Assembly (NCBI GenBank): GCA_017506865.1
Contig: JAFCMP010000146.1
Span: 434,001 to 498,000 of the forward strand
Source of the DNA: Tribonema minus
Taxonomy: Eukaryota; Sar; Xanthophyceae; Tribonematales; Tribonemataceae
Direction of reading: 5' to 3'
DNA: 64,000 bases
The translations under genes were made by a program, and so were the position numbers. Below the pieces are notes generated by a model that was not told the origin of the DNA, made no database searches, and saw nothing but the letters and a program-made list of their open reading frames with translations. Positions 204 through 3,055 of the stretch are shown here, in pieces. Within the stretch, counting starts at the first letter, position 1. Each line of letters opens with the position of its first letter.

Positions 204-1676
204 TCAGCGCGACATGTACTTTGAGAGACGGGCGCGCTTGGCCTCCAGCTTCTGCTCGTCCACCTCCAGCAGCCGCTTGAGGTGACGCCTGGAGCGCTCC
301 GCCTTGCGCTTGTACCGCTCCGCCTTGTTGCCGTAGTGGATGATGTTCGCGATGAGGGCGTTTTCCGTGTCGTCCGAATCGCCGGCCGCGGCGGCAGCAC
401 CGCCCCCCGAGTAGGCGGTGGCGTCGGCGCCGTCTGCGCCTCCCTCGTCGGCGCCGTCCGCGCCCCCCTCGTCGGCGCCGTCTGCGCCTCCCTCGTCGGC
501 GCCGTCTGTGCCGTCCGTGCCTCCGTCGGCGGCGGCGTCCGTGCCCCCGTCGGCGGAGGCATCCGCGCCACCCTCGTCCACGGCAGCGTCCGTGCCTCCG
601 CCGGCGGCGCCGTCCACGCCTCCCTCGTTCGCGGCGTCCGCGCCTCCGTCGGTGGCGCCGTCCACACCTCCCTCGTCCGCGGCGTCTCCTTCGCCCTCAG
701 CATCGGCCTCGGCGTCAACTGATAACCCATCCTTGAGGCCGAACAGGCGGTAACCCTGGGCGCAATGATAAGCTGGCGCCCGATGCCCCAGGCGCTCCGC
801 CGTCCCGGCGATCGTGTCGGGCTTGCCGTGGTCCTTGATCTCCATGCAGTCGTACATCTGGCGGATGAGGTGGAGAGTGGCGTTCCTGCCGACGAACCAC
901 GCCTTGTACCCGTCGATGACGGCGGCCAGCAGCGGGTACATGGACTTGCCTGTCTTGCGTGACTTGATTGCGTTGCTGGCCCGCTGTTTACACAGTGTGA
1001 CCTGTTTCGGGTCGTCACCCAAAGACGCACGCACGCGCTGAACCGCCGCCATGACGTCGGCGGCAGACGCGAGCAGCAGGTCGACGACGCGCACATCCGT
1101 AGTGCCGTCCCGTTTGTTGACGGCGAACGTTTTGCCTTTCCTGCACAACTTGTGCTTGACCTCGTATTCGCCCGTCTCCACCCACTCGAATTTGCTGCAG
1201 ACGATCTCCATGTGACGCGCGCCGGTGACGATCATGATGGCGACGGACAGTATGTCGATTCCGCATCGCTCTTCCCCCTTCACGACCCGACCCGCCCACT
1301 TCCAGATCTCACGCACCTCGGCAGCCGGGTGCAAGTATTTCCCCTTGGCCTCCCATGATTTCACCAACGCCGCGTAAGCCGCCTTCACTTCCGCCGTCAG
1401 CACAGGGCAGGTGAAATGCTCGTGGAGGCGGTCGCCCCCGGCGATCAGCTGCTTGCGTGCGCTGCTGATGATGTTAGCGTATGTCTCGCGCTTGCACATG
1501 AACCCACCGTGTTGGGCTTTGAACGCCACCCTGTCCGCTTCGGAAAGGAGTTGATATGCCGCGTATATCCTGCTGCGCTCGTCAACATAGGCCAGCAGTG
1601 CGGCGTGCACCGCGGCCTTGTCGGACACGTCTAACTCCAGGGCCGTCATGTGCGCGATCACGTGTTCCTCTGCCAT
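204..1676 (-). CDS. Tyrosine recombinase resembling telomere resolvase (protelomerase)
   Basis: This intronless ORF encodes 490 residues. The start is the ATG at 1676, in a good context (GCCGAGATGG). The upstream in-frame extension has no ATG. A full set of tyrosine-recombinase catalytic residues is visible: Arg154 in VTGARHMEI, a Lys in CRKGK (about 180), His269 and Arg272 in HLIRQMY, His298 in RLGH, and Tyr309 in GYRLFGL as likely nucleophile. The LGH-to-Tyr spacing is 11 residues, not the 9 usual in phage integrases. The TGxRxxEI, IRxxY and LGH..Y layout recalls, from memory, the TelN/TelK/ResT catalytic domain. Such enzymes cut and rejoin DNA at palindromes, leaving hairpin telomeres. The alternative is a Crypton-type or viral integrase. 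Residues about 321-420 are an acidic Asp/Glu/Gly/Ala repeat, and the last 60 residues are a basic coiled coil. Recombinase identity is fairly secure; resolvase function is inferred. Confidence 0.72.
   Translation of the reverse strand: MAEEHVIAHMTALELDVSDKAAVHAALLAYVDERSRIYAAYQLLSEADRVAFKAQHGGFMCKRETYANIISSARKQLIAGGDRLHEHFTCPVLTAEVKAAYAALVKSWEAKGKYLHPAAEVREIWKWAGRVVKGEERCGIDILSVAIMIVTGARHMEIVCSKFEWVETGEYEVKHKLCRKGKTFAVNKRDGTTDVRVVDLLLASAADVMAAVQRVRASLGDDPKQVTLCKQRASNAIKSRKTGKSMYPLLAAVIDGYKAWFVGRNATLHLIRQMYDCMEIKDHGKPDTIAGTAERLGHRAPAYHCAQGYRLFGLKDGLSVDAEADAEGEGDAADEGGVDGATDGGADAANEGGVDGAAGGGTDAAVDEGGADASADGGTDAAADGGTDGTDGADEGGADGADEGGADGADEGGADGADATAYSGGGAAAAAGDSDDTENALIANIIHYGNKAERYKRKAERSRRHLKRLLEVDEQKLEAKRARLSKYMSR
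413..710 (-). repeat. In-frame minisatellite coding an acidic Gly/Asp/Ala tract
   Basis: Imperfect tandem copies of a GC-rich unit (GAC-GGC-GCC-GAC-GAG-type codons on the minus strand) encode repeated Gly-Ala-Asp-Gly and Asp-Glu-Gly-Gly blocks. The block separates the catalytic domain from the C-terminal coiled coil. Copy number probably varies between alleles. It is low-complexity linker sequence, not a catalytic element. Confidence 0.75.
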
Positions 1677-1740
1677 CTCGGCGACAATAGTCCGGCACAA
1701 TATTTTTTCGGAGTGAAGGTGTGCACTCAGCCATAATCGT

Positions 1741-1828
1741 CTCCCACGGAATGCAGGCCTCCCAAAAGAATGCACCGGGGACTTGTGTATTGGGAAGGGG
1801 GGCGGCTCAAGGTCTCCCAAAAGAATGC
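1741..1828. promoter_or_regulatory. Three related direct repeats 5' of the recombinase gene
   Basis: CTCCCAAAAGAATGC occurs at 1759-1773 and exactly again at 1814-1828. A related copy, CTCCCACGGAATGC, is at 1741-1754. They lie 65 to 150 bases upstream of the recombinase start codon. They could be promoter elements or recombinase-binding sites; the sequence alone does not say which. Confidence 0.45.
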
Positions 1829-1853
1829 GCCGACAGAATGCAAGCCAACCGAA

Positions 1854-1922
1854 GAGGGCTAGGGCTAGGGAAGGGCTAGGGCTAGGGCTAGGAGTAGGGC
1901 TAGGGTTAGGATAGGGTTAGGG
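1854..1922 (+). repeat. Degenerate telomere-like array (TTAGGG/GCTAGGG)
   Basis: About eleven units of GGGCTA and GGGTTA type run head to tail for nearly 70 bases, ending in GGGTTAGGATAGGGTTAGGG. TTAGGG is the telomere unit of many eukaryotes. The array lies between the recombinase gene and the palindrome at 2069. It is the densest of several interstitial telomere-like tracts in this window. Confidence 0.8.
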
Positions 1923-2060
1923 CCGGCACGAAAGTTCTAGTGTCAACTTCAATCGGCACGAAAGTTCATAGCTTCAACTTCAACTGGCACAAAAGTTCCC
2001 AACTTCAACTTCAACTGGCACGAAAGTTCCAGTCCCAACTTCAAGTCGCACGAAAGTTCC
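1923..2060 (+). repeat. About 31-bp tandem repeat, GGCACGAAAGTTC plus AACTTCAACTTC
   Basis: Four full units and one partial unit start at 1925, 1953, 1984, 2017 and about 2047. Each has the core GGCACGAAAGTTC, followed by a variable tail rich in AACTTC hexamers. The tail hexamer is the same motif that is dispersed through introns and spacers across the whole window. The array abuts the telomere-like tract on its left and the 28-bp palindrome on its right. Confidence 0.7.
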
Positions 2061-2068
2061 AGCCCCAT

Positions 2069-2096
2069 GGACTATATGAAACGTTTCATATAGTCC
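2069..2096. promoter_or_regulatory. Perfect 28-bp palindrome, candidate resolvase target
   Basis: The left arm GGACTATATGAAAC is followed directly by its exact reverse complement GTTTCATATAGTCC, with no spacer and no mismatch. The bases immediately outside do not extend the symmetry. It lies about 390 bases upstream of the recombinase start codon. Known protelomerase targets are palindromes of this kind. The palindrome is seen directly; its role as a target is inference. Confidence 0.6.
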
Positions 2097-2606
2097 AACT
2101 TGCAGCAGCCATTGCTTGTTGTCGGGCGAGACTCCGCATTGCGGCACAGTACAGGTGATGCTTCTTAGCGTGCTGTATGCTAATGGTGCGCGCAGCACTG
2201 GTGCGGTGGTTGCCAGGGCAGCGTCAATGTTCAGTCCACACAACTCCACAACCTGAACTTGCAAGCGAGACATTTGCCGATGGCCAGTGAATCTACTCTT
2301 TATCTGCAGCACACACACCCTTGTGGCGTGCGCCAGAGGCAAGGTAAGCAGTCACACACACGCACATGTATATACTTTGTGGAGTATATGTGTGTGCTTG
2401 TGCATGTGTTAAGTGTCAGCACTGATGATCATACAGGCAATGTTGCCGCTACCATATCCAATCACGAGGTCCGGCTGCTTAAACGCAGAGAAACAAGAGC
2501 CCCACATGTTCAGCTGCCGGTGCATTTGCATGCCGGAAATATTGGTTGCAGGGGGGTTGTGCGGCACCCTGCCCGTACGCGCAGAATGTACAGATATGCG
2601 TACAGT
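2097..2606. other. Spacer, no gene recognised
   Basis: About 500 bases between the palindrome and the first MITE hold only short ORFs on both strands, without start context or family similarity. A purine/pyrimidine-alternating TGTGTG stretch is near 2385-2405. Confidence 0.35.

Positions 2607-2999: not shown

Positions 3000-3055
<56 letters not shown>

Follow-up and report, generated by a model that had tools for sequence, protein, structure and literature searches.

The window analysed here is a 64,000-nucleotide stretch of the genome of the xanthophycean alga Tribonema minus (158 Mb in 554 contigs), namely positions 434,001 to 498,000 of contig JAFCMP010000146.1 (C146:434001-498000). Its positions 1-2097 (2.1 kb) form the right end of a 19,293-bp element (C146:416805-436097) that carries a gene for a tyrosine recombinase and finishes in a perfect palindrome. 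The recombinase gene occupies 204..1820 of the minus strand (538 codons if read from a TTG, 490 amino acids from the ATG at 1676), and its transcription points away from the palindrome. The product is a tyrosine recombinase with the complete catalytic set that the initial annotation had named (in the 490-residue numbering R154, a lysine given as about 180 and found at K180, H269xxR272, H298 and Y309), which we confirmed from the open reading frame (ORF) and from an alignment of nine members of the family in four subfamilies. The first arginine, the lysine, the second arginine and the histidine are invariant in this alignment, the tyrosine is aligned in eight of the nine members, the ninth (the L004 copy on contig C56) being truncated upstream of it, and the first residue of HxxR varies between H, G and N. 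In the C-terminal part, a 24-bp tandem repeat (422..686, minus strand) codes for an acidic linker rich in Gly, Ala and Asp, which is followed by a predicted long helix. This helix (483-537) is the sole confident region of a single-sequence AlphaFold2 model (mean predicted local distance difference test score 42), the rest of which is poor.

The palindrome, which we will call P, occupies positions 2068..2097 and has the form TG-N5-TATGA-N6-TCATA-N5-CA. It had first been described as a perfect palindrome of 28 bp, and it is indeed present and perfect, but its length is 30 bp. It is the sole even palindrome with arms of at least 12 in the window, where the base composition would lead one to expect about 7e-5 even palindromes with arms of 15 in 64 kb, and as a single strand it folds with -11.4 kcal/mol (z -6.5). 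When up to three mismatches are allowed, the P of the window is found in exactly two places of the genome, C146:416805 and C146:436068, which are the two ends of the element: the element runs from a TG to a CA (5'-TG...CA-3'), and P makes up the terminal 30 bp on both sides. P forms the outer part of a terminal inverted repeat of about 310 bp (1786..2097), whose left copy starts at C146:416805 with the ends aligned, and 277 bp of it (1821-2097) are repeated in inverted orientation at 97% identity at the far end. Directly outside both P copies stands the 5-bp target-site duplication ACTTG (2098..2102, and directly before C146:416805). The P pair, the inverted repeats and the flanking ACTTG therefore define an element of 19,293 bp bounded by P, and the earlier suggestion that this block could be the end of an integrated virus-like element is borne out, P being its terminus.

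Two repeated tracts are found within the inverted repeat. The first is a degenerate TTAGGG/AGGGCT array (1855..1923), which the initial annotation had noted as telomeric repeats. The array is there, but (TTAGGG)4 has 3,071 + 3,991 matches in the genome (overlapping ones counted), so that such an array is unremarkable alone; a functional role or a use as telomere seed is not supported, and its place beside the recombinase is incidental. The second, a 31-bp tandem repeat of 4.6 copies (1923..2063), has a copy at the left end too, and its units could serve as binding sites of a protein for replication or end binding. Inside the element, at C146:427825-427858, we also observed a 34-bp near-perfect palindrome (one mismatched pair) that contains the terminal-repeat word CTTGAAGTTGA, possibly an origin or a second site.

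The gene content of the element was examined in the 18.2 kb that precede the window, where 23 ORFs of at least 150 amino acids are listed; 8 of them were scanned, and most of the remaining ones overlap these 8. Among the products are an rve integrase of retroviral type (PF00665, E 5.4e-12), a helicase like the herpesvirus origin-binding proteins (Herpes_ori_bp, PF02399, E 1e-9), which also matches CyRepA1 in NCBIfam below the cut-off, and a P-loop ATPase with weak matches of packaging type (Pox_A32, E 0.0012), for which IMG/VR holds no relative. A protein-primed DNA polymerase B is absent from the 8 ORFs scanned with Pfam. A 422-amino-acid product is a candidate capsid protein, and its gene recurs at 25 places of the genome (43 match rows), 19 of which have an rve match within 20 kb; at one of them, on contig C290, a recombinase match of the subfamily called D below lies about 18 kb away. 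A size of 19-20 kb, inverted repeats of hundreds of bp, a 5-bp duplication and an rve integrase are features shared with Polintons and Polinton-like viruses (PMC12220804, PMC10120064), and the candidate packaging ATPase, weak as its match is, and the replication helicase would be further points in common with them. As one part of the overall explanation, we thus take the element, with moderate confidence, to be a Polinton-like provirus in which the 422-residue protein would be the capsid.

The recombinase of the window belongs to a family with 35 tblastn matches in the genome, which sort into four subfamilies: A is the window copy, B comprises the copies on contigs C171 and C56, C is about 34% identical to A, and D, of which there are many near-identical copies, about 28%. 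All seven family proteins scanned with Pfam matched the telomere resolvase family PF16684 (ResT/TelK; E 0.0009-0.085) and none of the seven an integrase family; the other matches (OspC, Casc1_N and DUF4259) were weak and confined to one protein each. A profile of the family core was then compared with profiles of 10 phage telomere resolvases, and of 7 lambda-type integrases, and with Cre, 60 column shuffles serving as control. It scores 60.2 against the resolvases (probability 93; best of the 60 shuffles 20.1), versus 18.0 against the lambda-type integrases and 15.4 against Cre, where the shuffle maximum is 19.6-20.1. In a forced full-length alignment with the resolvases, which is confident only around the first arginine (box I), the catalytic R, K, xxxR, H and Y are collinear in the resolvase order. 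An identity as a lambda-type integrase or as Cre was rejected on these grounds, the profile similarity being within the shuffle range and Pfam giving no integrase match, and the claim that the enzyme stands nearer to telomere resolvases than to integrases holds at the level of sequence profiles. To judge from these, the relation is real but remote. The window recombinase has no match in NCBIfam or PHROGs, the family alignment and subfamily C have no relative in IMG/VR, and the Rfam scan of the window gave nothing at gathering scores.

The recombinase genes are associated with rve integrase genes. Once two pairs of tblastn matches are merged, the family has 33 loci, and with 55 of the 73 rve match rows used, an rve match is found at most 11 kb away for 26 of them and at most 6 kb away for 23. 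Of the remaining loci, four are on contigs devoid of an rve match, three of which are shorter than 50 kb, and for three the nearest match is more distant. The chance of an rve match near a given locus is about 0.009, calculated for 13 kb, but the 26 loci are not independent because many of the D copies are near-identical. The pairing is nonetheless seen in each of the subfamilies A, B, C and D. It had also been suggested that the enzyme could be a domesticated one acting on chromosome ends; we rejected this idea, since the recombinase family travels with the rve gene in mobile elements.

P itself is not confined to the C146 element. The palindromes near the two B genes, on C171 (B1) and C56 (B2), carry the TATGA and TCATA boxes, spaced from the centre just as they are in A, and the pattern TG-N5-TATGA-N6-TCATA-N5-CA occurs at 15 places in the 158 Mb, versus 1 for the reversed-pattern control. 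Together with four places that have an N7 centre, this gives 19 sites: two of type A, one B2, 13 of C type, two B1 and a lone site of B1 type. The centre is N6 in A, in B2 and in 12 C ends, and N7 in B1, in one C end and in the lone site. All five free outer pairs are symmetric in 17 of the 19 sites and four of the five in the remaining two; by comparison, among the 120 IMG/VR pattern matches listed, five outer pairs are symmetric in 2 and four in 2 more, and no tblastn match to the recombinase was found among these 120 loci, so that the IMG/VR matches look like chance. Perfect symmetry of the complete site is reached only in A. Of the 19 sites, the 18 that are element ends have a TGG on the inner side only, and the lone site has none on either side. 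Over the 1.5 kb compared for seven C-type ends, the similarity stops at P. The C-type sites lie at least 16 kb from a recombinase gene, and P with its shared boxes accompanies three recombinase subfamilies, A, B and C. The palindrome thus recurs near related genes, as the initial annotation had proposed to look for, in this case within the same genome. Beside the B2 palindrome of C56 (L004 1152-1194), there is an extra 12-bp half site, TGACCAGTATGA, that ends exactly at the border between arm and centre and could be either an insertion into an older P or a by-product of recombination.

In four cases two P sites face each other, and all four pairs have identical 5-bp repeats directly outside. 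Besides the C146 element (19,293 bp, ACTTG), they delimit an element of 20,440 bp on C171 (C171:33669-54108, CTATG), with rve, capsid-like matches and a subfamily-B recombinase, and two much larger ones, of 134,952 bp (C157:1057756-1192707, ATAGT) and of 92,889 bp (C519:494521-587409, CTTGT), in both of which rve and subfamily-C recombinase matches are adjacent. The arms of the C519 element, each of which carries an rve-recombinase pair, are inverted copies, 97-99% identical where sampled, over distances of up to about 31 kb inward. It is not a perfect inverted dimer, since the middle 2.8 kb sampled are not inverted, and we therefore speak of long inverted repeats. An identity of the 93-135 kb elements as nucleocytoplasmic large DNA viruses found no support, none of the 10 PF04451 capsid matches lying on C157 or C519; five ORFs in the 9 kb of large-element interior that were sampled gave no Pfam match. 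Within the 135-kb element, C157:1074164-1094666 contains a Polinton-like integrase (78%) and pieces of a capsid gene, as if a small element had been inserted into the large one.

The lone P, at C511:437119, is of B1 type and stands in the arrangement TCCAC-P-TCCAC with no inverted repeat on either side, and it matches the right P of the 20-kb C171 element in 30 of 31 bases. This single case resembles an excision scar, although single-strand annealing between 31-bp repeats could give the same product. The scar does not tell a hairpin-forming enzyme from a Cre-like one, because ResT and a mutant TelA are able to recombine like Cre, and because hairpin fusion is the reverse of the resolvase reaction (PMC13221069).

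The centres of P provide another type of information. At one end type of the large elements, the centre read inward is of the CA form at five ends (C30, C224, C112, C519 left and C536) and of the TG form at two (C157 right and C412), four of these seven ends being typed by at least about 500 bp of shared sequence and the other three solely by a match lying 1.5-2.2 kb inward. C519 contributes a third TG centre at its right end, where the arm is an inverted copy of that on the left. The possibility that centre orientation is locked to end type was rejected, as both orientations are found at one end type. CpG decay is also an unlikely origin of the asymmetric centres: over the repeat positions where CG is the commonest pair, two gapped cells being set aside, CG is kept in 42 of 43 other cells versus 0 of 9 centres. 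By our reasoning, and with the small numbers at hand, the turnover of hairpins, with the element passing between circle and linear form, would be expected to yield both centre orientations as well as direct repeats, while a fixed site of Cre type would yield direct repeats only.

The explanation that we favour, and to which we give slightly better than even prospects, is that the rve integrase inserts the element and that the resolvase-family enzyme makes hairpins of, or recombines, its P ends. The integrase would insert linear DNA by CA-3' ends, which would account for the 5'-TG...CA-3' termini and for the 5-bp duplication. The resolvase-like enzyme would act on P, probably cutting where the arms meet the central 6 bp; the two cuts of known telomere resolvases are 6 bp apart (PMC3558466), a spacing that the N6 centre of P would fit. 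On a joined form, a circle or a replication junction in which one P lies between two element ends, this would produce two covalently closed hairpin ends, each with one half of P. If the hairpin base were then nicked, after CA and before TGG, a 30-nt 3' tail ending in CA would be left, and strand transfer followed by fill-in would leave a full P at each end inside the 5-bp duplication, so that the opening of hairpins and the copying of the tail would explain the presence of complete sites on both sides. Removal of the element leaving a lone P could proceed through P x P recombination, or through resolution and subsequent fusion of the chromosomal hairpins. More tentatively, and as something we put somewhat short of an even chance, Polinton-like viruses and the 93-135 kb elements could share a so far undescribed two-enzyme end system in which the resolvase closes the hairpins, the integrase opens their base and inserts the DNA, and a solo P remains after excision.

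A number of observations weigh against this explanation, on the side of the enzyme, of the site and of the element. The PF16684 scores (12.8-19.3 bits) are below the curated cut-off of 27, as in remote homology, and PDB searches with the recombinase by sequence and by profile found nothing. Taken alone, the subfamily profiles score 28 (A+B), 29 (C) and 49 (D) against the resolvases, and the lambda-type integrase profile itself reaches 34 against them, so that the relation is remote and depends on the whole family, whose score leans on subfamily D; no P lies within 1.5 kb of the subfamily-D genes. With regard to the site, the centres are asymmetric both in the 20-kb element (7 bp, TTGCYGA) and in the large ones (TATGTA or TACATA), and the P sites are direct repeats in all three complete elements with an asymmetric centre, which suits ordinary recombination. 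The N7 form of the pattern has 4 matches versus 3 in the reversed-pattern control, a count that says little because it hardly exceeds the control, so that only symmetry and context distinguish these sites, and in the pattern searches 9 of the 13 C-type ends, as well as the B2 end, had no partner on their own contig. As for the element, the candidate capsid protein has no relative in Pfam, PDB, IMG/VR or phage records (best E 0.5), which makes the label of virus rest on gene set and layout, and as far as known the recombinase shares an element with only 2 of the 25 candidate-capsid loci (C146 and C171). Finally, hairpins were not observed directly, and the only contig found to fold back, C350, does so at a sequence that differs from P. 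This contig of 19,056 bp is a mirror image around position ~9,545, with 100 of 100 bases complementary in the 100 bp compared on either side; its arms each carry a subfamily-D recombinase and an rve match, and it may represent a hairpin read-through or an assembly foldback, that is to say an artefact.

The main rival, which we consider possible and yet rather unlikely, is a recombinase of resolvase ancestry working in the manner of Cre or Xer: with 12-bp arms and a 6-bp centre, P x P recombination would serve to excise and circularise the element or to separate multimers, without any hairpin being formed. The direct repeats just mentioned speak for it, and so does the lone P, since P x P excision would leave such a site within a 5-bp duplication; two mutations are enough to turn TelA Cre-like (PMC13221069), and circularisation has been proposed for Polinton-like viruses that have a tyrosine recombinase (PMC4642659). 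However, the P of the window is symmetric throughout, centre included, and would give a Cre-like enzyme no direction. Such an enzyme would also leave unexplained the full P at both ends after rve integration and the two centre orientations at one end type, and by its profile the family stands closer to telomere resolvases than to either Cre or integrases. We find it improbable that P is merely the recognition end of the rve integrase, with the recombinase as a passenger that has its site elsewhere. The integrase alone would indeed account for the TG...CA ends and the 5-bp duplications, and the subfamily-D genes that lack a nearby P, like the majority of the candidate-capsid loci, which lack a recombinase, are in line with it, but an integrase end has no need of inverted symmetry, P with its shared boxes accompanies three of the recombinase subfamilies, and the lone scar suggests recombination at P, even if single-strand annealing could have yielded it. 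Self-priming rolling-hairpin replication of the parvovirus type, in which terminal palindromes would prime synthesis and the recombinase would only nick or trim, is highly improbable in our opinion: the folding of single-stranded P and the occurrence of both centre orientations would suit it, but no replication-initiator endonuclease family was found among the 8 Pfam-scanned ORFs of the element, and the recombinase has the full R-K-R-H-Y set.

Other features of the window lie outside the element. Positions 2607-2840 look like a short inverted-repeat transposon, 234 bp bounded by the perfect 15-bp inverted repeat TAGGGTTGCCAAAAC; stretches that end in CAACCCTAG are also present upstream of the recombinase copies in L006 and L012. 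Positions 3000-3054 of the window consist of eighteen perfect AGC repeats, and the ORF at 56036-56794 matches UTP-glucose-1-phosphate uridylyltransferase (PF01704, E 7.5e-36).

Telomere resolvases are already known from bacteria, from phages and from a few giant algal viruses. What is new here is that a relative of the resolvases accompanies a DDE integrase, both in small Polinton-like elements and in large ones, and that the site is the exact end of the provirus. In this way, two enzymes of mobile DNA may be joined in a single cycle. If the hairpin explanation is true, it would provide such elements with a third solution to the end problem, beside protein priming and circularisation, and the system would offer testable hairpin telomeres in a eukaryotic setting. 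Solo P sites would, in turn, allow one to count past excisions, and the whole may bear on the exchange of replication modules between Polinton-like and larger viruses.

A narrowly worded search of the open-licence PMC literature yielded no paper joining Polintons or Polinton-like viruses with protelomerases, telomere resolvases or terminal palindromes, and none of relevance on Polintons and telomere hairpins; for telomere resolvase together with virophage it yielded only a paper on Ectocarpus (PMC13236599). The integrases named for Polintons and Polinton-like viruses are either rve enzymes or tyrosine recombinases (PMC4642659, PMC12220804, PMC10120064), and none of the words 'palindrom', 'hairpin' and 'resolvase' is used in the available portions of these three papers, whereas the C146 element ends in P. 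Cre-lox and Xer-dif sites, like P, have inverted arms around a short centre, and recombination between direct repeats is possible in these systems; the family differs from Cre in its profile score, 15.4, which is within the shuffle range. The likeness to ResT, TelK, TelN and TelA (PF16684) is greater, through the collinear R, K, xxxR, H and Y and through the presence, close to the gene, of a palindromic site whose centre is 6 bp long; the resolvase site annotated in the N15 and phiKO2 records stands just before the gene, as it does in the window. The known resolvases differ in the size of their sites, 50-56 bp versus the 30-31 bp found here, and are very remote in sequence. The setting also differs: here, the enzyme would act in mobile elements of a large genome, in the company of an rve integrase and with P at both integrated ends, the hairpins being an inference in this case.

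The initial annotation had known of no characterised nuclear-encoded example in algae, a statement that needs qualifying, as telomere resolvases are reported in phaeoviruses, including the proviruses of the Ectocarpus genome (EVEc; PMC13236599), and in coccolithoviruses, among them ehv387 (PMC10222054). The EVEc provirus, a giant virus, is the nearest precedent: it is an algal virus with a telomere resolvase and a telRL-like palindrome with a 6-bp core, it is found in the integrated state, and foldback reads were reported at this palindrome (PMC13236599). Its palindrome is, however, internal, and a separate tyrosine recombinase with attL/attR sites has been proposed for its excision (PMC13236599), whereas in the C146 element the palindrome is the outermost end and integration, with its 5-bp duplication, looks like the work of the rve integrase.

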